From the NCBI GenBank assembly GCA_002840555.1, contig PHBJ01000010.1, positions 1 to 64,000 of the forward strand: a stretch of 64,000 nucleotides of DNA, written 5' to 3'. A program made the translations under genes and the position numbers. The stretch comes from Deltaproteobacteria bacterium HGW-Deltaproteobacteria-13. Lineage in GTDB: Bacteria; Desulfobacterota; Syntrophia; Syntrophales; Smithellaceae. This document shows, piece by piece, positions 28,283-43,585 of the stretch (positions are counted from its first letter, which is position 1; each line of letters begins with the position of its first letter). Under the pieces are notes generated by a model. The model was not told the origin of the DNA. It ran no database searches and saw nothing but the letters and a program-made list of their open reading frames with translations.

Positions 28283-28737
28283 ATGTCCTCCTTTGGGGAA
28301 ACGAGGGATAACGTCTTATTTTCTTATCCCAGTAAATATTTATTTTTTTATTGAATGCGCAAGATAATACAACTTCGTGAAAACAATGCAAGAATAAAAT
28401 GGGAAAAGAAAAAATGTTCAAGGTTCTAAGTTCTATGTTCTATGTCAAAAAAAACAGGGGAAGGGGGAATAAGACAGTTTTAAGTTTTAAGTTTTAAGTA
28501 ATTAAGTAGTTAAGTAGATAACCGTGAAGAGTGAAAGGTGAAGGGAAAAGAGGAAAAGAGTTCTATGTTCTATGTTCTATGTTCAAGGTTAAAAAAAGCG
28601 GTGAAGACTGAAGAGATTTTAACAATACAATATTATATTGACATAAAAGCATCGCTTCTTTACAGTCTTTTTTCCAGAGGACTGGTTTTATCAGGTCCAA
28701 CTCTGAGTTGCAGATTTTAATGAAAGAGGATGATACC
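28283..28737. repeat. Reversed composite repeat array (455 bp)
   Basis: From 28408 to about 28620 there are reversed GAACNTW runs (28412-28442 and 28560-28592) and TTAAGTTTTAAGTAATTAAG units. The last ~110 bases before the next gene are AT-rich and should hold the promoter of the ATP-grasp gene, but no convincing -35/-10 pair was seen. Confidence 0.7.
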
Positions 28738-29757
28738 GTGCCGTTAGATGTAGCGCCCGCAAAAATTCCGGTGGTTTTATTGTACAATGTCAATCCGGAA
28801 TGGACGCAAAGCGAAAAAGACGAAGTGATCAGATTGTCCACAGAGCTTCATGATGCTCTTGCCGGCATTGGACACCCCACGGTTTCCGTTCCCATCATGG
28901 ATGATGATATTGCCGGTCATCTTCGTCCCTTTGATCCTGACAAATATATTATTTTCAACTGGTGCGAAGGGCTTCCGGGCGTTGAAAACAGCGAGTCGCT
29001 GGTGATTAAAAAGCTGGAAATGCTGGGTTATACCTTCACCGGCGCGAACTCCGAAGCCCTGGCCCTCGCGTATGATAAATACCGCGTCAAAGTCATTCTG
29101 GATAAAGCCCGCATTCCCACACCGGCCTGGCAAATTTTTAATTCCCCGGACATCCGGGACTGGAAAACATTTCCGGCGATTGTCAAACCGCAGAACGAAC
29201 ATTGCTCCGCGGGCATTACACCCGAATCCGTGGTAATGAATCAACCGGATTTAAAAAATCGAATATCCTTTATTCTGAATCAATATTCCCAACCGGCGCT
29301 GGTGGAGGATTTTATAGACGGCCGCGAATTCCATGTTTCCGTCTGGGGCAACGATCAATTAACGGTGCTGCCGGCGGCGGAAATGGATTTTTCCAGTTTC
29401 GGCAATATGAAGGACAGGCTTTGCACGTATGACGCAAAATTTATTCCCGGTTCACAACATTACGAAAAAATTGAAACCCTGCTGCCCGCCCCGCTCACGA
29501 ATGACGAAAAGAAGGCGTTGGAAGAGGCTTGCGGCAACGCCTACCGCGCGACCGGATGCCGGGATTACGCCCGCATGGACATACGGCTGCGGGACAATAT
29601 CTTTTATGTTCTGGATGTTAATCCCAACGCGGATATCAGCTCAGACGCCAGCATGGCCTGCGCCGCCGAGATTGCCGGCATCAGCTACGCTCAAATGGGA
29701 AGCATTATCGTACGCATGGCCGCCCGAAGACATCCCGTCTTTGGGAAACTGCTTTAA
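28738..29757 (+). CDS. ATP-grasp ligase (D-Ala-D-Ala ligase-like)
   Basis: This 339-residue enzyme is best started at the GTG 28738, which has AGAGGA seven bases upstream; in-frame ATG 28720 and TTG 28708 precede it. The ATP-grasp fold is recognised from FPAIVKPQNEHCSAGI (ATP-binding Lys and loop), PALVEDFIDGREFHVSVWG and the Mg2+ site YVLDVNPNADIS. The order resembles D-alanine-D-alanine ligase, but the N-terminal domain differs and the genome context has no peptidoglycan genes. It could join an amino acid or peptide carboxylate to an amine. It lies 2 kb from the RiPP genes, though on its own; a link is speculative. Confidence 0.88.
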   Translation: MPLDVAPAKIPVVLLYNVNPEWTQSEKDEVIRLSTELHDALAGIGHPTVSVPIMDDDIAGHLRPFDPDKYIIFNWCEGLPGVENSESLVIKKLEMLGYTFTGANSEALALAYDKYRVKVILDKARIPTPAWQIFNSPDIRDWKTFPAIVKPQNEHCSAGITPESVVMNQPDLKNRISFILNQYSQPALVEDFIDGREFHVSVWGNDQLTVLPAAEMDFSSFGNMKDRLCTYDAKFIPGSQHYEKIETLLPAPLTNDEKKALEEACGNAYRATGCRDYARMDIRLRDNIFYVLDVNPNADISSDASMACAAEIAGISYAQMGSIIVRMAARRHPVFGKLL

Positions 29758-30990: not shown

Positions 30991-32445
30991 TCAACGCGAA
31001 AATTGCTCCATACGATTTTTTACCCTTCGCGATATCGTGTCAAAAAACATTTGCGGCCACCTTTGCATCGGCGTCAGCCGCAATCGCGCGAGCCGGTGAT
31101 GCTTTCTCGAAAACGGTTCAAGCCGCGACTGTGTCCAGTGTTTCCTCTCTTCAGGCGTAACTTCGGAAAAAATATCCGCCGCGTAAAAGCCGCGCACATT
31201 ATCCCGCGTCCAATCCTGCGTTTCAAAAAATTTTTCTCCCGTCTCTTGATATAACAGGGAACCCGGTTGACGCAGCAATGGATGCCAACTGAACGTATCC
31301 GGCTTATGGCGCTTCAACCAATTCAGTTTCACATCCAGGTCCGTCAGAGACTCTCCCGCCGTCCGCGTCATGATACTCGCGTGGACAGTTATTCCCGCAT
31401 CACGGCAGAACCGCAGAGCTCTCTCATTGACACTGACCGTTGTGCCTTTTCGCACAGCGTCCAAATCTTTTTGCTGAGCGGTTTCCACGCCGATTTCGAT
31501 CTGGACGCAGCCCGCCTGCCGCATCAGCCGCAGCAAATCGGGTTCCAGCCTGTCCGCCCGTGCCTGCACCGCCCATAAAAACCGTTTTGCGAGTCCCGTC
31601 CCGATAAAGCGGCGGCAGAGATGCTCCACTCTGACCGGGTCAATCAGAAAATCATTGTCGTGAAAATAGATGCCTTCGACCTGCGGGTATTGCCGCAGGG
31701 TGCTTGCGACCATTTCTGTGATATAGTCCACGCTATGAAAACGCACTCCGCCGCCATAAATCAGCGACTCGGTGCAAAAAGAGCAGCGGTAACTGCATCC
31801 CCTTGACCCCAGCATGGATAATGTCGACAGATGAAATCCGCGAAGAACAGCTGAAGCGCGGCGCGTATAAAATCCGGTGTCAAACAATGAATAGTCAGGG
31901 AAAGGCAGCCCATCAAGCTCCCGGACGCGGCCCAAACATGGTTCAGACGGCTGCCGCGTTTCTTTATCCTGGCCGTTTTCGCAATTTTGCCGCCAAAGGA
32001 TTCCGCTGATGTCATCTCGCTTTGTCCCTTGAGCCAGCGCCAGCAGAGAATCTTCACCTTCGCCTACACCTACACCGTCGAGTTCCGGAATCTTTTCCAG
32101 CGTAACCCGCGGGAGCGCCGTCACGTGGTGTCCACCCGCCAGCATGATGCCCTGAAAATCATCGCGAAGGATTTTCGCGCAATGCACCGTGTCATAGATC
32201 ATCGGTGAAACGGTGGACAAGCCGACGACATCCGGCGCAAACGTTTTTGCCGCTTTAAGCATCGCCTGATCGATCCTCTGCTTGTCAAGTCCGAACCGGG
32301 CCATCGCGGCATAACGATCAAAAACTTGCACGGCATGCCCATGCCGTTTCAGCAGCGCGCCGATGTAGGCGAATCCCAGCGGGATCCAATGAGGCAACGG
32401 AAGCTTCTTTTCTTCCGTGCCGTGCGTAACGAACAAAAATCGCAT
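30991..32445 (-). CDS. B12-binding radical SAM enzyme (RiPP-associated)
   Basis: This 484-residue protein has an N-terminal cobalamin-binding domain (residues ~1-140, PDVVGLSTVSPMIYD and LAGGHHVTALP), then a radical SAM core with the 4Fe-4S motif GCSYRCSFC (CxxxCxxC). A C-terminal extension of ~100 residues follows the SAM core. Family members are B12-dependent methyltransferases or ring-forming enzymes, including ones acting on peptides. It lies 30 bp after the lasso-B2-like protease gene, with a clear AAGGAAG site, so it is the third gene of the operon DUF362-B2-radical SAM. Peptide modification of the nearby precursors is inferred from this position. Confidence 0.92.
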   Translation of the reverse strand: MRFLFVTHGTEEKKLPLPHWIPLGFAYIGALLKRHGHAVQVFDRYAAMARFGLDKQRIDQAMLKAAKTFAPDVVGLSTVSPMIYDTVHCAKILRDDFQGIMLAGGHHVTALPRVTLEKIPELDGVGVGEGEDSLLALAQGTKRDDISGILWRQNCENGQDKETRQPSEPCLGRVRELDGLPFPDYSLFDTGFYTRRASAVLRGFHLSTLSMLGSRGCSYRCSFCTESLIYGGGVRFHSVDYITEMVASTLRQYPQVEGIYFHDNDFLIDPVRVEHLCRRFIGTGLAKRFLWAVQARADRLEPDLLRLMRQAGCVQIEIGVETAQQKDLDAVRKGTTVSVNERALRFCRDAGITVHASIMTRTAGESLTDLDVKLNWLKRHKPDTFSWHPLLRQPGSLLYQETGEKFFETQDWTRDNVRGFYAADIFSEVTPEERKHWTQSRLEPFSRKHHRLARLRLTPMQRWPQMFFDTISRRVKNRMEQFSR

Positions 32446-32475
32446 GGGGTTTGTCTTCCTTTTCTTTTTTGCCGC

Positions 32476-32910
32476 TCAGCCTTCCAGCATCACCGTATAT
32501 TCGCTCTCCAGCGATACGGGATCTTCCCGATATACCTGTCCGTACACATGCAGCCACGCATGACCCTTCAGCATGTCTCCATCTTTTCCCACACCCACAA
32601 ACAATTTGCTGTCTATGCCATGTTTCCGGCACCAGCGGTACAGAACCAGAGAGCGGCGAAGACAGGGACGCGGATTCCGCAGTAACCGCGCCATCCAAAA
32701 ACCGCAGGCTCGCCACAGTTTGTCCAGTGTAACCATTGCTTCCTCAGGCAAGGGCGAAAAAGATATATCATTATCCATTTCACGAATTCCGGCCAGAATA
32801 TTCGGCAACGGTTTCCGGTGAATCATCATCTCATAATAAATCAGCCGCAATAGCGCTCCGGCGATCAGAGGCACATCCTGCGGTAATTCATATCCTTTAT
32901 GCTTCCACAA
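32476..32910 (-). CDS. Lasso-B2-type leader peptidase (transglutaminase-like)
   Basis: This is a 144-residue protein if started at TTG 32910; the ATG at 32979 would overlap the upstream gene by 83 bp, so the start is uncertain. It matches the lasso peptide biosynthesis B2 protein family (PF13471), a Cys protease that removes leader peptides. The catalytic Cys is in NPRPCLRRSLVLY (residue 83), the His in KGHAWLHVYG (117) and the Asp in REDPVSLE (130). Stops and starts are tightly packed in the operon with DUF362 and the radical SAM enzyme. In lasso systems B2 works with a PqqD-like B1; a B1-type PqqD lies at 36442. Confidence 0.88.
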   Translation of the reverse strand: MWKHKGYELPQDVPLIAGALLRLIYYEMMIHRKPLPNILAGIREMDNDISFSPLPEEAMVTLDKLWRACGFWMARLLRNPRPCLRRSLVLYRWCRKHGIDSKLFVGVGKDGDMLKGHAWLHVYGQVYREDPVSLESEYTVMLEG

Positions 32911-33820
32911 TGCGGTATCCCTGCCAATCTTTGTTTCCGACACCAATCTGACGAGCGTATTGCAACTGACGCATCTCAAACGGATCCTCCGAGAATCCTT
33001 CCAGACAATCGAATTCCCTCTTCAAAGCGTACAACCTTCGATACGCTTCCACATCGACCGCCAAAGGATTTTCGCCCCACAACACGACGCCGGCTTTTTC
33101 CACCACACCTGTTGCCGGCCCTCCGCAGATAAAAGCCTTTCGTCCATCAATAATGGTCAGGTCCGGCTGCACCGCCAGCGCGAGTTCCGCCACTTTCTCC
33201 CGCAAATATTCCCGATGCAGTTCCCTGCGCTCCAGCGGATGCATGTACCCCACACCCAGCTTCATCCCGAAACTAAAATCCGCCAGGGAATGCGTCTTCA
33301 TGTTAGCCAGATGAATAATGCGGTCAACCTCGGACACCATCTTCGGCACTACGGCTGAAGAAAGATATTTTCCGCCGATAGGGACTCGCACCCACGGCCT
33401 TTTGTCAAAACAAATCAGCCGGGCTTTGCCGCGTACCGCTTCCTCGATGCCTGTGTGAGCCGCCACTTTTTTCGTGGGCAACGCGCCGATGGAAGAACAA
33501 TCCCCGACCGACACGTTCCGGTATCCTTTATCCTGCAGCGCATCCAGCAATGCAGTCAAAAAAGCCGGATCCGTCGACGCCGGATACGCATCCGCCGTGT
33601 TGAGGTTAATCTTGATAAGAATCCGTTCGTTAATATCCCACGCGGGTAAGAGGGATTGGCATAATCCTTTCAGGCTGGCCGGCTCATTTTTGCAGTCACG
33701 GAAGAACACCTGTTCGTCAGTCAGGCGTTTGCCGGCAATCCGCATCTCTCCCCGCCCGGCGAGTACTATCCGACGAAGCACTGAAGGCCGGATCACATAG
33801 CGAAACAAACGTCGGAACAA
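32897..33820 (-). CDS. DUF362 domain protein
   Basis: This 307-residue protein carries the DUF362 domain, recognisable by ILIKINLNTADAYPASTDPAFLTALLDAL, NMKTHSLADFSFGMKLGVGYMHP and LTIIDGRKAFICGGPATG. Many DUF362 proteins also have an N- or C-terminal ferredoxin; this one does not. The family is widespread in anaerobes and its activity is unknown. It is the first gene of the operon with the B2 protease and the radical SAM enzyme, and its 3' end overlaps the likely B2 start by 14 bp. The start at 33820 has no strong ribosome binding site. Confidence 0.88.
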   Translation of the reverse strand: MFRRLFRYVIRPSVLRRIVLAGRGEMRIAGKRLTDEQVFFRDCKNEPASLKGLCQSLLPAWDINERILIKINLNTADAYPASTDPAFLTALLDALQDKGYRNVSVGDCSSIGALPTKKVAAHTGIEEAVRGKARLICFDKRPWVRVPIGGKYLSSAVVPKMVSEVDRIIHLANMKTHSLADFSFGMKLGVGYMHPLERRELHREYLREKVAELALAVQPDLTIIDGRKAFICGGPATGVVEKAGVVLWGENPLAVDVEAYRRLYALKREFDCLEGFSEDPFEMRQLQYARQIGVGNKDWQGYRIVEA

Positions 33821-34018
33821 AAATTTTCCTCCCCGGCAGGATTGTTATGAATTGAGTCGAATGAACGCGTTATGCGCGCCGGATGAATTCGCTCCCCATC
33901 AATGTCCGGTTTCCCCGCCTGTTGCTGCCCCGGCATAACATGATCATGCGGCGGCGTAAAACTATAAAAAAGTTCCATTTACGTGTCAATGTTATTCTTC
34001 CATAATGAAATAAATTCG

Positions 34019-34047
34019 TTTGACTGAACCGGCTCTTTGTAATAAGT
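34019..34047 (+). promoter_or_regulatory. Putative promoter of precursor gene 1
   Basis: TTGACT (34019-34024) is followed after 17 bases by TAAGTT (34042-34047), a weak -10. A GGCTCTTTGTAA string between them recurs upstream of precursor 5, which supports a shared function. The rest of 33821-34018 shows nothing recognisable. Confidence 0.35.
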
Positions 34048-34085
34048 TTTCACCAATTGGTTATCCCACGACAGGAGAAATAGAT

Positions 34086-34181
34086 ATGAAACAAGACTAT
34101 GAGAAGCCTGAACTCGTAATTTATGAGGATCTTTCTGATGTAACGGCCGGAGTAGAACCAGTGAGTGGTGTAACGGGTTAA
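34086..34181 (+). CDS. RiPP precursor peptide 1 (VSG type)
   Basis: This 31-residue gene is preceded by AGGAG eight bases upstream. The leader MKQDYEKPELVIYEDLSDVT has the YxxPxL...T pattern recognised by lasso-type RiPP RRE (PqqD/B1) proteins. The core region AGVEPVSGVTG differs from the other five copies. The leader of all six peptides is nearly identical. The gene is followed by TAAGTCCGGACATTG, shared with copies 2 and 3. Function as a modified peptide is inferred from the flanking enzymes. Confidence 0.8.
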   Translation: MKQDYEKPELVIYEDLSDVTAGVEPVSGVTG

Positions 34182-34202
34182 GTCCGGACATTGCGCAAAA
34201 AT

Positions 34203-34229
34203 TTGATCCTAATGGCGTTTTATTATAAT
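34203..34229 (+). promoter_or_regulatory. Promoter before precursor gene 2
   Basis: TTGATC (34203-34208) and a perfect -10 TATAAT (34224-34229) with a 15-base spacer. The same pair in near-identical sequence stands before copies 3 and 4, about 40 bases before each ATG. The short spacer is unusual. Confidence 0.5.
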
Positions 34230-34268
34230 CTTTCGTAAAATAATTTATCATGAAAGGCAGGAAATCTG

Positions 34269-34364
34269 ATGAAAAAAGACTATGAGAAACCTGAACTTGT
34301 AATCTACGAAGACCTTTCGGATGTAACGGCCGGAGGAGAACCTGTGAGCGGTACAATTACCTAA
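34269..34364 (+). CDS. RiPP precursor peptide 2 (VSG type)
   Basis: This is a 31-residue gene. Leader MKKDYEKPELVIYEDLSDVT; core AGGEPVSGTIT. Relative to copy 1 the core differs at about five positions while the leader has one change (Q3K). An 87-bp spacer from copy 1 carries a promoter of its own. The same strand and close spacing mean it is part of the six-gene tandem set. Confidence 0.8.
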   Translation: MKKDYEKPELVIYEDLSDVTAGGEPVSGTIT

Positions 34365-34639
34365 GTCCGGACATTGAGCGCCGTGCTTGTGATCAGGGAA
34401 TTCTTACTGGAAAGATATTAGTATGTTGCCGGTATAATTTTTTAATCATTATATACCCCTATCAAATTATTGACAGATCAATCAAATCAAGACGGCATCT
34501 TGAAGCTCTGCTTTCCGGTTGATTCTGAATCATTGACACATAAGACACTTGTTTGAAAATCGTAAAAAAAATTTGACCCTTACGGATTTTTATTATAATC
34601 TTTCGTAAAATAATTCTTCCATGAAAGGCAGAAAACCTG
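34365..34639. other. 275-bp spacer between precursors 2 and 3
   Basis: It is longer than the other precursor spacers. The last ~80 bases are the type-A promoter unit (TTGACC-N15-TATAAT) before copy 3. The first ~190 bases are AT-rich and show no gene; a decayed seventh copy was looked for but no leader codons were found. Confidence 0.5.
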
Positions 34640-34735
34640 ATGAAAAAAGAATATGAGAAACCTGAACTTATCGTTTATGAAGATCTTTCGGATGTAACGG
34701 GCGGAGAAATTTCAGTGAGTGGTGGAAAAAGCTAA
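34640..34735 (+). CDS. RiPP precursor peptide 3 (VSG type)
   Basis: This is a 31-residue gene. Leader MKKEYEKPELIVYEDLSDVT; core GGEISVSGGKS. It is the only copy ending in Ser, the residue that HPr-kinase-like enzymes phosphorylate in some lasso precursors (paeninodin group); this match is suggestive only. It shares the VSG motif with copies 1 and 2. Confidence 0.8.
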   Translation: MKKEYEKPELIVYEDLSDVTGGEISVSGGKS

Positions 34736-34823
34736 GTCCGGACATTGCACAAAAATTTGACCCTAATGGCTTTTTATTATAATCTTTCGTAAAATAATTC
34801 TTCCATGAAAGGCAGAAAATCTG

Positions 34824-34916
34824 ATGAAAAAAGAATATGAAAAACCTGAACTTGTAATCTACGAAGATCTTTCAGATGTAACGACCGGTCTTGCTGCAAG
34901 TGCTCCGCCGGATTAA
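34824..34916 (+). CDS. RiPP precursor peptide 4 (SAP type)
   Basis: This is a 30-residue gene. Leader MKKEYEKPELVIYEDLSDVT; core TGLAASAPPD. It begins the second subfamily, whose cores contain an AxSAxP-like string in place of VSG. Its upstream spacer still belongs to the VSG-type unit, so the subfamily boundary is inside the coding region, as a recombination event would leave it. Confidence 0.8.
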   Translation: MKKEYEKPELVIYEDLSDVTTGLAASAPPD

Positions 34917-35046
34917 AATGTAAGATTCTGTTTTTTATTCGGACAACCAATACAGGAGGTTTAAGCCCCTGCATTGATTGTAAGTAAATTGGAAAGCTTT
35001 GGCTCTTTGTTGTAAATGATATCACAAAGTAAAAGGATGAATGAGC

Positions 35047-35136
35047 ATGAAACAAGACTATGAGAAACCTGAGCTTGTAATCTACGAAGATCTTCAGGAT
35101 GTAACGGCCATTCTTGCAAGTGCTCCGCCAGAGTAA
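35047..35136 (+). CDS. RiPP precursor peptide 5 (SAP type)
   Basis: This is a 29-residue gene. Leader MKQDYEKPELVIYEDLQDVT; core AILASAPPE. An in-frame ATG six bases earlier (35041) is possible, but the conserved leader begins at 35047; the AAAGGA site is 10 bases before it. The 130-bp spacer on either side is a duplicated unit (TCGGACAA-CAATACAGG...). Shortest core of the six. Confidence 0.8.
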   Translation: MKQDYEKPELVIYEDLQDVTAILASAPPE

Positions 35137-35266
35137 ACTGCAAGATTCTGTTTCTTATTCGGACAATCAATACAGGAGGTTTAAGTCCCTGCATTGAATG
35201 TAAGTAAATTGGAAAGCTTTGGCTGCCTGTTGTAAATGATATCACGAAGCAAAAGGATGAATGAGC

Positions 35267-35359
35267 ATGAAACAAGACTATGAGAAACCTGAACTTGTAA
35301 TCTACGAAGATATTTCGGACGTAACGGCCGGTACTCAGGTAAGCGCTTCGCCAAATTAA
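35267..35359 (+). CDS. RiPP precursor peptide 6 (SAP type)
   Basis: This is a 30-residue gene. Leader MKQDYEKPELVIYEDISDVT; core AGTQVSASPN. Its core mixes VSA with SP and looks intermediate between the two types. It is the last gene of the array, 82 bp before the convergent HPr-kinase-like gene. Confidence 0.8.
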   Translation: MKQDYEKPELVIYEDISDVTAGTQVSASPN

Positions 35360-35441
35360 GAAAATTTAAGGCTCTGCTTTTAACGGGCGTCCGAATTCAG
35401 AAAGTTTGCATTCGGGCATTGAGCGTTATCGTGTTATTTCA

Positions 35442-36434
35442 TCAAATTGTTTCCGCCAGTTCCTCTATCTTCGCCGCAAAATCATCCATATCTGTTCCGA
35501 ACTTAACAAGCCGGCACTCGATATTTTCGACCATTTCCATAATAAAATCAAACTTGGCGGCCCTGAATTGAGGGCTCACGGCGGTTATTGTTACAGGGAA
35601 AAGGCCTCCCGCAAGCTTTATCGGGTTAATGGCTCTCACCTCCGTTTTGGGAAGACCTGTCTGTTCCAGCATGCACAAAACCTTCAGAGGCGCCCGGTTT
35701 TGCCACGCGGAGGCTTTTGATCCGCCCAGCTTCAAATAGTGTTCCCCGGCTATGACATCATATTCAGGACACGAACCCGGCTTAGCAAAGAATCTCGATA
35801 TGACATCATACCGCACTTTAATAATATCCGAAATGGATCCTGCCGAGTATCCCGCCTCTTTAAATATAAACAACTTTTCATCAGTCAGTATGGGCATCCC
35901 TTTCTGCATAAGGGCAAAGGCTGCCGTCGATTTGCCGGCCCCGGAGTTGCCCGTGAAGGCGATCCCTTTCCCCCCGACCGAGGCGCAGGAGGCGTGCATG
36001 GAGAAAATACCCCTTGATGTTAAAAGTTTGTCTAAAGGGTAGTCGGCAAAAAGATATTTCTGGTACGTGGGGAGCATGGCCTCGCTGCACAGCATTGATA
36101 CAGCGCTGCCTTTGTCATAATCGAGCATAATGCGCCCGACGCCGGCATAGTCCGTCCATTGCCTGAGTCCGTCGATGTAAGTCGAGAAATCAAAGTTCTG
36201 ATTTGTAATAATAATGCCGCTTCTGGTTTTGTATTCTTCGGCAGGCAGTTCAAGAAGCTTCTCCATCCCTTCACGGTCAACCCCTGTGATTTCAAGGGTA
36301 AGTTCCGGCGTTTTTGATCCTTCGAACGGGGGCATTGCATACCATGAGCGCATATCCTTTAAGCAGGGAGCCCAATCTCCGAAAATCCTTAACGGCTTGT
36401 CGAACGCGTTAAATGTGTACGAATAATTCTTCAC
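35442..36434 (-). CDS. HPr-kinase-like protein (RiPP-associated)
   Basis: This 330-residue protein starts at GTG 36434, seven bases after the pqqD-like stop. The Walker A GNSGAGKST (162-170) and the ILTDEK motif ~20 residues on are those of HPr kinase/phosphorylase-type P-loop folds. Stand-alone HprK-like proteins of this kind are common in lasso and related RiPP clusters, where some phosphorylate the C-terminal Ser of the precursor. Third gene of the NTase-PqqD-HprK set on the minus strand. No HPr protein is seen nearby, which argues against a carbon-control role. Confidence 0.88.
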   Translation of the reverse strand: MKNYSYTFNAFDKPLRIFGDWAPCLKDMRSWYAMPPFEGSKTPELTLEITGVDREGMEKLLELPAEEYKTRSGIIITNQNFDFSTYIDGLRQWTDYAGVGRIMLDYDKGSAVSMLCSEAMLPTYQKYLFADYPLDKLLTSRGIFSMHASCASVGGKGIAFTGNSGAGKSTAAFALMQKGMPILTDEKLFIFKEAGYSAGSISDIIKVRYDVISRFFAKPGSCPEYDVIAGEHYLKLGGSKASAWQNRAPLKVLCMLEQTGLPKTEVRAINPIKLAGGLFPVTITAVSPQFRAAKFDFIMEMVENIECRLVKFGTDMDDFAAKIEELAETI

Positions 36435-36441
36435 GATTTTG

Positions 36442-36708
36442 TTAATCCAAAGTTACAAGTTTGTTTTCGGTCAGTGTTTTAATCAAAGCTTCGAGATCCT
36501 TGAGGAGTCTCTCCTTCTCTACGTTGAACTCATCCAGCAGCAATGCGGAAATATCGGACAAACTTTTTGTGCCGTCTATTTTTTCCCAGAAGGCGCAGCC
36601 GACCTTATTAAGACCATAATACTTTCCGGTCACGGGATTAAGCAGCACAATCTCTCCGCGGACATTCTTCCAAATAATGTCCGGATTCTTTTTAGGAATT
36701 CTCTCCAT
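36442..36708 (-). CDS. PqqD-family RRE (B1-like) protein
   Basis: This 88-residue protein is a PqqD-type RiPP recognition element: NPDIIWKNVRGEIVLLNPVTGKYYGLNKVGCAFWEKIDG forms the three-stranded sheet and wing, and the helical C-terminus (LSDISALLLDEFNVEKERLL) completes the fold. Such proteins bind precursor leader peptides and deliver them to the enzymes. The precursor leaders here carry the YxxPxL pattern typical of B1 partners. GGAG precedes the ATG by nine bases. Confidence 0.92.
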   Translation of the reverse strand: MERIPKKNPDIIWKNVRGEIVLLNPVTGKYYGLNKVGCAFWEKIDGTKSLSDISALLLDEFNVEKERLLKDLEALIKTLTENKLVTLD

Positions 36709-36767
36709 AGGGTTTATCTCCTTCTATATTATTTTACGCAAGCGTTGAATATTTTATCATCAGACGA

Positions 36768-37961
36768 TTACGCGCGTCTCCCTCGCAACAGCTGACTGCC
36801 GATTATGTAAATATTATAAACAGGCTGAAGCCATTTGGGAATCCGGACGCCGGATTCACGCCATAATATGACACCCTGCGAATCAAACAGGAAGTGGGAA
36901 ATCATCCTCAAACGGCCGGCAAGCGTTGCGGGGCAAAGCGGCATGCAGATATATGAAGCCAGCCGCGATCTTTCTTCCCGCATCAGGCAGCTTTTGTAAA
37001 AGCGATACTCACCCGGCAACATCGTGCTATCGTGCAGGAATCTGCGCCAGTTTGCCGCCCCCGGCCATGAATCGCCCATGTAATCGGCGACAAGCCGTAA
37101 ACAGACGCCCTGCAATTTGCGGCCGTCAGGTGATGCTGCCGTTTTGTATATGAATTCCCAGTCCAGATCATTGCCGTACCGCTTCAGGAAAAGGGCCAGT
37201 TCGATAAACCATCTCAGGCCGGTGTATTGATGATGAAGGGCAAAATGCAAGGCCAGATGAATAAACTGCATCTCGGGAGACAGCCTTCTTGCCGTGACGC
37301 CCCCGATTAAGACCGTGCCGGTATTTTCCCACCAGGGGAAGCCATCCAACGCCAGGTAATTATTCATAGGATAGTGTGCCCGTAAACGCCAATGCAGATC
37401 GATGTTTATTGTCAGGGCGCCGGATTTCTTCATAAAGTGCGCCTCGCCAATCAGGTCGGTCAAATTGGTAAAATCGTCCTGACCGCCCTGAAATGACGGG
37501 ATGACATAGTTTGTATAGCCTTCGGCAAGCAGATATTCGAGCGCCTTAATCCTGTCATCCGGATGAATAAGCAGGTCGATGTCACTCATGGTCCGGGAGG
37601 AAGTATCACCATATATGTCTTCCATGTAGGACAAACCCTTCAGGATGATGTTTTCCACACCCGCCGCGGATAATCCCTGCAGAATTCCCGCGCACCGGGA
37701 TTCATAAAAGACATTGTGAGCGGCAACGCGGCGGGCAGCCATCCTAAGGGTATCAACAACTTTTACCGGTATTTCCGAATCGGCTTTGGTTTGAAAAAAA
37801 AGAGCGGAAAAATATCCGGACATGCCTGTCTTTTGTATAGCCGTGATGATCGCCCGCCAATCCACATTTCGCAAGGCGGACGTTTTGCCCAAAGACGGTC
37901 CCCCTGAGTTCAAGCCGGAAACGATGGATAATATTTTTTCGTTAAGGTTTGGTTCATACAT
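36768..37961 (-). CDS. Nucleotidyltransferase family protein (RiPP-associated)
   Basis: This is a 397-residue protein. ILKGLSYMEDIYGD and RTMSDIDLLI (SDID at residues 126-129) give the metal-binding Asp pair of the nucleotidyltransferase fold (NTP_transf_5 group). Members occur next to HprK-like and PqqD-like genes in lasso and other RiPP clusters; a role in modifying the peptide or its phosphate is inferred from that position. The ATG has GGAG seven bases upstream. It is the first gene of the three-gene set. Confidence 0.88.
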   Translation of the reverse strand: MYEPNLNEKILSIVSGLNSGGPSLGKTSALRNVDWRAIITAIQKTGMSGYFSALFFQTKADSEIPVKVVDTLRMAARRVAAHNVFYESRCAGILQGLSAAGVENIILKGLSYMEDIYGDTSSRTMSDIDLLIHPDDRIKALEYLLAEGYTNYVIPSFQGGQDDFTNLTDLIGEAHFMKKSGALTINIDLHWRLRAHYPMNNYLALDGFPWWENTGTVLIGGVTARRLSPEMQFIHLALHFALHHQYTGLRWFIELALFLKRYGNDLDWEFIYKTAASPDGRKLQGVCLRLVADYMGDSWPGAANWRRFLHDSTMLPGEYRFYKSCLMREERSRLASYICMPLCPATLAGRLRMISHFLFDSQGVILWRESGVRIPKWLQPVYNIYIIGSQLLRGRRA

Positions 37962-38113
37962 TCAGGTTTCTCCGCTCATATCAGGAACAGGTAAAACTTC
38001 CATGGATAAGGCATGTTTGCGGTCGGAGTATAGGTGAAGTGTTTTTATATGTCAATGAAAGGCTCACCAGCTGCAAAAGAAGAAGGATTCCCGGGTCGCC
38101 CCTGTATTGCGTT

Positions 38114-42187: not shown

Positions 42188-43585
42188 ATGACTGAACTGA
42201 AGAAGGTAATAAAACTCCGAACCGTTATCTCCACCTCCGCGGGAATGGCCATCGCCACCTCCTGCTATCTCGCGGGTATCCAGCTGGCCACTATCCTCGT
42301 GGGCGAACTCGCTTGGATTTCCATACTGCTTGCGGGGTTTCTATGCCTGCTGTCCTCCATGTGTTTCTCGGAGCTGACATCGCTCTACCCGACAGCGGCG
42401 GGAATCAAACTCTACATTCAAAACGCTTTTAACGAAAAGGTTTCCATCATCATCGGCATGTTTTACGTCATTCTGGGCATTTCCATGGTGGGAGCCGAAA
42501 GCTATCTGCTGGCAAGCGTCCTGTCCGGCACCTTTCAAATATTCACGCCCTTATATGACAAATTACTGTGGATGCTTTTCTTTATCGTCTTCGTGGTATT
42601 GATCAACATCAGAGGAGTTTACATTACAGGCCTTGTTCAGGACATCATGACCTACAGCATGATTGCTTTCATGATCGGTGTTTCCATTTATACCTTTGCC
42701 ACGCATGATATAAACTTCAGCCTCGCCGCGCAGAGCGCAAAATTCACGCTGGGCAATATCATTCAGGCGGCGGGAGTCGGCGTCTTTCTCTTTGTCGGGT
42801 ACGAGTGGGTCACCCCACTGGCCGAGGAGACAACCGACTACCGGCTCATCGGCAAGGGCATGATCTGGGCTATCGGCATCCTCACCGTTACGTATTCTCT
42901 TTTTATCGTCGCCATGTATACGGGTCTCACGCCCGCGCAGCTCGCCTCCGGCACGCCGATTCCGCATATTGTTTTCGGCACGAACCTCTTCGGCGTGGCG
43001 GGTACGATAACTTTCATTTGCATGAGCATTCTCGCTTCAGTCACATCGTTCAACTCGGGACTCCTTAACACATCAAGGTTTTCCTACGCAATGGGCAGGG
43101 ACAACGTTCTCCCCCGGTTCTTCAGCAAGCTCCACCCGTCCTACGCGACGCCATGGGTATCTATACTCTTCCTGGGTGGTTTAGCGATTGTCATAAGCCT
43201 TACAACCCTGTTTACGGGGAAATATCTCTTTATCATTCTGATGGCGGCGGCGCTGGAGTGCTTTATCTACGTTGTCGCGGCCGTATGCGTCATCAAGCTC
43301 CGGAAAAAATATCCCCAGAAAGAAAGAGCGTTCAAAATCCCGGGAGGCTATACCGTACCGATCATCGTCATCGTGGTCTTTACCGGCCTGATGATCGGCA
43401 TATTTACCGATGTCAGCCGTGATTATCTGGGAAGAGAGCTCTTTAAAAATTACTGGGTGGCCGTTGTCATGGCCGGATTTTTTCTTTGCATGGTTCTCTA
43501 TACGCTGATGGTCGTGCCCATCTTCAAGAAGAAAGCTCAAGAAAAAGAGAAAACGAGAGTTAAAAGAAGGCCGGGCAAAAGCTGA
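42188..43585 (+). CDS. APC-family amino acid permease
   Basis: This 465-residue transporter has about twelve membrane helices and the APC N-terminal pattern (ISTSAGMAIATSCYLAGIQLATILVGELAW). FVGYEWVTPLAEET, in helix 6, is close to the substrate site of APC transporters. Start codon 42188 follows the SCP2 stop by ten bases, with a GGAGAA site. Amino acid or amine uptake for the adjacent catabolic enzymes is likely; the exact substrate is unknown. Confidence 0.92.
   Translation: MTELKKVIKLRTVISTSAGMAIATSCYLAGIQLATILVGELAWISILLAGFLCLLSSMCFSELTSLYPTAAGIKLYIQNAFNEKVSIIIGMFYVILGISMVGAESYLLASVLSGTFQIFTPLYDKLLWMLFFIVFVVLINIRGVYITGLVQDIMTYSMIAFMIGVSIYTFATHDINFSLAAQSAKFTLGNIIQAAGVGVFLFVGYEWVTPLAEETTDYRLIGKGMIWAIGILTVTYSLFIVAMYTGLTPAQLASGTPIPHIVFGTNLFGVAGTITFICMSILASVTSFNSGLLNTSRFSYAMGRDNVLPRFFSKLHPSYATPWVSILFLGGLAIVISLTTLFTGKYLFIILMAAALECFIYVVAAVCVIKLRKKYPQKERAFKIPGGYTVPIIVIVVFTGLMIGIFTDVSRDYLGRELFKNYWVAVVMAGFFLCMVLYTLMVVPIFKKKAQEKEKTRVKRRPGKS

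Follow-up and report, generated by a model that had tools for sequence, protein, structure and literature searches.

A cyclase-less locus with lasso-type leaders and very short serine-containing cores in a Smithella-type bacterium

The closest described counterpart of the locus considered here, which occupies positions 30991-37961 of a 64,000-nucleotide stretch (the window; contig PHBJ01000010.1) from Deltaproteobacteria bacterium HGW-Deltaproteobacteria-13, is a group of ribosomally synthesized and post-translationally modified peptides (RiPPs), the linear polyphosphorylated peptides (LPPs; Popov et al. 2026, PMC13381572). Both systems combine a YxxP leader with a discrete PqqD-type RiPP recognition element (RRE), an HprK-like kinase and a nucleoside triphosphate (NTP) transferase; neither has a cyclase, and the cores of both carry a Ser close to their beginning, which in LPPs is the kinase target (core Ser3 of the precursor LppA). 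However, LPPs rely on a signal peptidase resembling SipW and an exporter resembling MsbA, whereas the window has a lasso B2 protease and no exporter in the locus. LPP precursors measure 35-200 aa, with a 45-residue core in the studied case, whereas cores of the window family mostly have 5-10 residues and are encoded in arrays. The LPP leader motif YxxPxVLxHQxIxFETxxS is absent in the window, where the leader reads YEKPELVIYEDLSDVT. LPPs are described as restricted to Bacillota, whereas the window family belongs to Smithella/Syntrophaceae and has extra tailoring enzymes.

The phosphorylated lasso system Bsf of Bradymonas (Duan et al. 2023, PMC10368454) shares with the locus a B1 RRE, a B2 protease, an HprK-like kinase and a nucleotidyltransferase (NTase), together with the leader spacing of -17/-14/-12 and the kinase catalytic residues, apart from one D to E change. 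The Bsf kinase phosphorylates core Ser3 of the lasso precursor BsfA, and mutagenesis of BsfK established that H148, K169, S170, D186 and D187 are required. In contrast to the window locus, Bsf has a macrolactam cyclase, an ATP-binding cassette transporter and a Gly1...Asp8 core. The lasso peptides paeninodin and pseudomycoidin likewise involve a kinase and a nucleotidyltransferase-type enzyme acting on a precursor Ser, while differing in the lasso ring, the C-terminal Ser target, the cyclase and the longer core; in pseudomycoidin, phospho-Ser receives a hexose, a step that requires the NTase (reviewed in PMC9266682). Additionally, B12-radical S-adenosylmethionine (SAM) RiPP pathways (maturation C-methyltransferases, ApyD) have a B12-binding radical SAM enzyme in common with the locus, and differ in leaders and partners.

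The locus thus carries the YxxPxL/T(-2) leader, B1 RRE and B2 protease of lasso systems without the cyclase and the lasso core, and the RRE, HprK-like kinase, NTP transferase and lack of cyclase of LPPs without the SipW-like peptidase, the exporter and the leader motif. Because it lacks defining features of both families, the system is classed here as a variant, and not a member, of LPP or Bsf: it works in an LPP-like manner, with a lasso peptidase and far shorter cores. The original prediction, made from the DNA letters, had proposed a new class. Bacillota LPPs are already cyclase-less RiPPs with lasso-like leaders, an HprK kinase and an NTase (PMC13381572), and the class is therefore not wholly new. 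The variant is not described in the open-licence literature searched, where nothing relevant on Smithella and RiPPs was found; a description outside that literature is possible. We consider it probable that the locus is a cyclase-less RiPP system making a set of very short, probably linear peptides, with Ser (poly)phosphorylation as the primary modification.

Precursors with lasso-type leaders and short cores

The host genome, from a Smithella-type bacterium, has 3.5 Mb and is rated 100% complete. All parts of the locus that the original prediction had listed within 7 kb, namely six tandem short genes, an RRE, a B2 protease, a kinase, an NTase, a DUF362 protein and a B12-radical SAM enzyme, were found at 30991-37961 by open reading frame (ORF) analysis and comparison with Pfam and NCBIfam. 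The precursors lie on the plus strand (34086-35359), sandwiched by two minus-strand blocks, one encoding the NTP_transf_5, RRE and kinase proteins (37961-35442) and the other the DUF362, B2 and radical SAM proteins (33820-30991). Their leaders and predicted cores are MKQDYEKPELVIYEDLSDVTA and GVEPVSGVTG (34086-34181), MKKDYEKPELVIYEDLSDVTA and GGEPVSGTIT (34269-34364), MKKEYEKPELIVYEDLSDVTG and GEISVSGGKS (34640-34735), MKKEYEKPELVIYEDLSDVTT and GLAASAPPD (34824-34916), MKQDYEKPELVIYEDLQDVTA and ILASAPPE (35047-35136), and MKQDYEKPELVIYEDISDVTA and GTQVSASPN (35267-35359). The YxxPxL leader with T(-2) is present in 6/6, with Y, P and L at -17, -14 and -12 relative to the predicted cut.

When 395 genomes of the phylum were scanned with the leader profile, the six copies of the window were all recovered, as were eight in a distant genome (G282). 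Seven other genomes of the phylum have a locus of this kind, bringing the family to 36 precursors. A position-specific scoring matrix of the 16-residue leader scores them at 22-48 bits, whereas control DNA from related genomes (266 kb) gives no more than 4.1 bits; since the matrix was built from family members, it is the contrast with control DNA that matters. For 22 leaders from Syntrophaceae, mean nonsynonymous divergence (dN) is 0.10 and mean synonymous divergence (dS) 1.03, a ratio of about 0.10, and the window precursors form duplicated units of about 140-215 bases in which the upstream region was copied too. Since the leaders recur in seven further loci, are constrained in this way, stand clear of control DNA and were duplicated with their upstream regions, the six small ORFs are real genes with leaders under purifying selection.

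The cores are short, with 4-10 residues in 31/35 (most 5-10). The earlier description of a RiPP locus with lasso-like leaders and short cores holds. A Ser occurs within the first 8 residues of 34/35 distinct cores, where about 13 would be expected at 6% Ser; this near-universal residue points to the kinase.

Two observations concern precursors in other genomes. Three orphan precursors with the same leader lie in G282 at L103:9098 (-), L103:9294 (-) and L104:9554 (+), 0.7-0.8 Mb away from the enzyme locus and without enzymes nearby; their cores are GRDGSQVID, GRDGSER and QVAPSNT, all three containing Ser, and their position suggests that they are served in trans. In L042, two protein-identical precursors with the core GLIVTPSGPT lie about 350 bases apart (6577 and 6226, minus strand) and represent a recent duplication.

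The constant enzyme module and a proposed route

The predicted peptide Ser kinase (330 aa; 35442-36434, minus strand) was assigned from a sub-cut-off Pfam match, its fold model and its agreement with BsfK. Its AlphaFold model (predicted local distance difference test score, pLDDT, 83) has the HprK/PEPCK fold, and H147, K168, S169, D185 and E186 align with BsfK H148, K169, S170, D186 and D187. Upstream in the same minus-strand block are a discrete B1-like PqqD-type RRE (88 aa; 36442-36708; PF05402, 1.1e-18) and an NTP_transf_5 nucleotidyltransferase-like protein (397 aa; 36768-37961; PF14907, 1e-43) of the PsmN/LppN/BsfN-type role. The RRE matches the lasso PqqD family NF033536 at 1.5e-13, below its cut-off, and has the lasso protein TbiB1 as its closest solved structure (5.6e-7). 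The lasso B2-type Cys leader peptidase is encoded in the other block (32476-32979, minus strand; Transglut_core3, PF13471, 6.6e-15; NF033537 lasso_biosyn_B2, 48.2 bits with a cut-off of 33). Comparison with L060 makes a GTG start at 32943 more probable, and the gene overlaps that of DUF362. Its residues C106/H140/D153 are invariant across five relatives; this triad and the leader spacing agree with Bsf-type systems. No SpI- or SipW-like leader peptidase was found in the locus, all larger genes of which belong to other families.

A broad kinase-profile scan of genome contigs returned five close relatives only: Smithella sp. SCADC (L056), Smithella sp. D17 (L057), a Smithella metagenome-assembled genome (MAG; L058) and two Syntrophaceae MAGs (L059, L060), of which L059 runs up to the edge of its contig and contributes no precursor. 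Further loci were found in other families of the order (L070, L080) and in another class of the phylum (L054). The kinase is present in 8/155 genomes of the class and in few elsewhere in the sample, and the system is hence rare. All eight loci having precursors, in arrays of up to eight copies, possess the leader and the HprK-like kinase; the RRE is missing only from L070, and B2 only from L042 and L070, in each case where the locus is cut by a contig end. The NTase occurs in the window, L040, L041, L042, L060 and L080, the orthologues in L040, L041, L042 and L060 being 58-70% identical. Judged by gene content, the constant module is the leader, RRE, B2 and kinase, with the NTase in most loci, and the tailoring genes are interchangeable.

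In the proposed pathway, the RRE would bind the YxxPxL motif, -17 to -12 from the cut, of each of the six precursors, and the RRE-aided kinase would phosphorylate, perhaps repeatedly, a Ser close to the N-terminal end of the core, which has 8-10 residues. The NTP_transf_5 enzyme, to judge by its family, may attach a further group, perhaps a hexose, onto the phosphate; its role is less certain because LppN was inactive in B. subtilis (PMC13381572). The B2 protease, delivered by the RRE, would cut one residue past Thr(-2) and release the core. The binding, phosphorylation and cleavage site are modeled on experimentally studied relatives, and Ser phosphorylation is proposed because of the core Ser, the Ser3 precedent of BsfA and LppA, the kinase residues and fold, and the BsfA-like leader spacing. 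A core pathway in which RRE-aided Ser phosphorylation precedes cleavage by B2 explains these features most economically.

Several points weigh against this proposal. The chemistry is argued wholly by analogy, the system being known here from its genes. The Pfam match of the kinase lies below the cut-off (28.9 versus 33.3 bits), and its second catalytic acid is Glu (E186) where BsfK has Asp, a conservative change. The Ser enrichment has a P of about 5e-14 if cores are independent, an overstated value since the cores are related; moreover, the Ser varies in position from 2 to 7, and Gly, Pro and Ser are generally abundant in short cores. No dedicated exporter is encoded within 30991-37961, the sole transporter among the scanned flanking genes being an amino-acid permease at 42188. 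Lastly, there is no NTase near L054, and L070 is contig-cut, so that the NTase may fall outside the core set.

An alternative is that the peptides are not free small molecules and serve as acceptors for surface-glycan attachment, giving phosphoglycosyl-peptides. It would fit the position of LPP loci inside capsule loci (PMC13381572), the placement of hexose on phospho-Ser by the pseudomycoidin NTase (PMC9266682), the Wzx-like flippase that adjoins L054 and the glycosyltransferases that adjoin sister PqqD-HprK-NTase loci of the genus. However, a glycosyltransferase is absent from the window locus, L040, L041 and L060, and we regard this role as quite improbable.

If phosphorylated, B2-released linear peptides are indeed the products, the lasso leader/RRE/B2 machinery would be a delivery platform of general use that is not tied to the lasso fold, and linear RiPPs with phosphate groups would reach beyond Bacillota into syntrophic anaerobes. 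To our knowledge, few peptide natural products are known from such organisms. The cores are short enough for chemical synthesis, which would open the kinase, NTase, B12-radical SAM enzyme, DUF362, and the cyclotransferase and formyltransferase of sister loci to direct assay.

Absence of a ring-closing enzyme

Bsf-type lasso clusters have the same kinds of leader, RRE, B2, kinase and NTase, and the locus might therefore belong to a lasso peptide with a cyclase gene located elsewhere or lost recently; AsnB-like genes do occur on other contigs or far off in G282, G480 and G396. However, neither the whole genome of the host (G000) nor those of four relatives (G395, G407, G436, G440) encode a full-length Asn_synthase (PF00733), the only matches being short PP-loop fragments, of 60 aa in the complete host genome. 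The lack of an AsnB-like cyclase, which the original prediction had reported for the window, thus extends to these five genomes. Recent loss is disfavoured by the leader dN/dS and by enzyme genes that are open in eight loci. The cores argue likewise: none of the 35 has the D/E at 7-9 followed by a tail that a lasso peptide would have.

The same leader profile supplied a positive control. It retrieved two loci, L105 (G298) and L106 (G339), in which RRE, B2, HprK and cyclase genes lie side by side, and the same cutting rule gave the cores AKGGTLADKTPPDTKK and GTAGSGADIPGTTCSSCDPKTT, of 16 and 22 residues, both with Asp8. By their genes and cores, these are true phosphorylated-lasso-type loci in the same phylum, and the contrast sustains the claim that the window locus is not of the lasso type. 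The whole-genome absence of AsnB and the non-lasso cores rule out a lasso peptide with its cyclase elsewhere; this origin is largely refuted and, in our estimate, extremely improbable.

One further candidate ring former was considered, a stand-alone ATP-grasp protein encoded in the window at 28708-29757 next to an FmdE-type gene. It was ruled out, being D-Ala-D-Ala-ligase-like and having no counterpart in the sister loci.

Interchangeable tailoring genes and neighboring features

The B12-binding radical SAM enzyme (484 aa; 30991-32445, minus strand; PF02310 and PF04055) carries the CxxxCxxC motif at C217/C221/C224 and has orthologues in L060 (69% identical), L070 (43%) and L054 (35%). It falls short of TIGR03975 (84 bits, cut-off 281.85) and of the ApyD model, which is among its best partial matches (112 versus 750 bits). 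A radical SAM profile run over the phylum gave extra matches in L081 and L082, which were set aside because they have no kinase, RRE or leader. The DUF362 protein (307 aa; 32897-33820, minus strand; PF04015, 1.5e-41) yielded a structure model too poor for a fold search (pLDDT 57), and the literature search found no paper joining DUF362 with RiPPs.

The original prediction had the radical SAM enzyme replace macrolactam formation; in its fuller form, this model makes the enzyme, with DUF362, class-defining and has it install a C-C or C-X macrocycle. Some B12-radical SAM enzymes of RiPP pathways form crosslinks, the ApyD model gives one of the best partial matches (far below its cut-off), and the two genes occur together in four loci across the phylum (window, L060, L070, L054) and neither is found in the remaining ones. 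However, sisters L040 and L041 and the distant L080 keep the leaders, RRE, kinase, NTase and B2 without the B12-radical SAM enzyme or DUF362; consequently, the radical SAM enzyme is, from its distribution, an optional tailoring module and not the class-defining enzyme. The cores are nearly devoid of aromatic residues and offer no conserved residue pair for linking. A macrocycle formed by this enzyme is possible, and nothing in the loci indicates one; we judge the model unlikely. In the phosphorylation pathway, the enzyme would act with DUF362 in optional tailoring of the core, for which its family makes C-methylation or another radical modification likely. Should this hold, DUF362 would acquire a role open to testing, alongside a radical SAM enzyme.

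The tailoring genes of sister loci differ: a glutamine cyclotransferase (QC; PF05096, 4.7e-72) in L040, L041 and L042, a formyltransferase (PF00551, 3.9e-24) in L040, L042 and L060, and a Mur-ligase-like enzyme in L041. By their families, these may provide optional steps such as pyroglutamate formation on Gln1. Additionally, L060 alone encodes another radical SAM enzyme (515 aa; L060:11422-12969), which has precursors on both sides.

These genes allow another reading, in which the system would exist for N-terminal capping in mix-and-match fashion: B2 exposes residue 1, QC, formyltransferase or another enzyme caps it, and phosphorylation merely aids processing. LppS, for its part, processes unphosphorylated LPP precursor poorly (PMC13381572). 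The QC proteins of the three Smithella loci lack an obvious signal peptide, each of these loci has a Gln1 core (QQPSKIMG, QVSAPV and QLSKGSG), and the gene is absent from all other sampled Smithella genomes. Gln1 cores are found in 3/3 QC loci versus 1/5 others (Fisher about 0.07, by hand). The link is nevertheless weakened because Gln1 cores occur without a clustered QC in two further places, L070 and the G282 orphan of L104, the G282 genome having no QC; it is a suggestive lead that is not relied on here. The formyltransferase might formylate a sugar instead, and the window holds no capping enzyme of the QC or formyltransferase type. We consider a system built around capping improbable.

Whether the loci amount to a distinct RiPP class of Syntrophales and relatives, in which leader arrays feed linear cores of mostly 5-10 residues to one kinase/NTase/B2 module, some precursors are served in trans (as in G282), and swappable tailoring (B12-radical SAM with DUF362, pyroglutamate-forming cyclotransferase, formyltransferase, Mur-ligase-like enzyme) diversifies the products, is a proposal to which we give slightly less than an even chance.

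Sigma-70-like promoters, recognized by consensus match (11/12 each), precede both minus-strand blocks, at 33961-33989 for the DUF362-B2-radical SAM genes and at 38027-38055 for the NTase-RRE-kinase genes; the region contains 13 such sites against 7.5 expected, a moderate excess over chance.

Other NTP_transf_5 loci of the genus were ruled out as homologous systems, having no stand-alone lasso-type leaders and kinases and NTases only 20-25% identical. In the host (G000:C20 and C25; L052:7097-7528 and L044:9536-9997) and in L039, L043, L046-L050 and L071, a PqqD-domain protein is encoded next to an NTP_transf_5 gene, several of these loci having an HprK-like gene as well. The C-terminal tail of the PqqD-domain protein, like FNVPVLNKYTDMQDLLLLDPIHEVDATGWP, resembles the leader motif [FY]xxPxLxxYxDLxD, which suggests that an RRE and the precursor it serves are fused in one protein.

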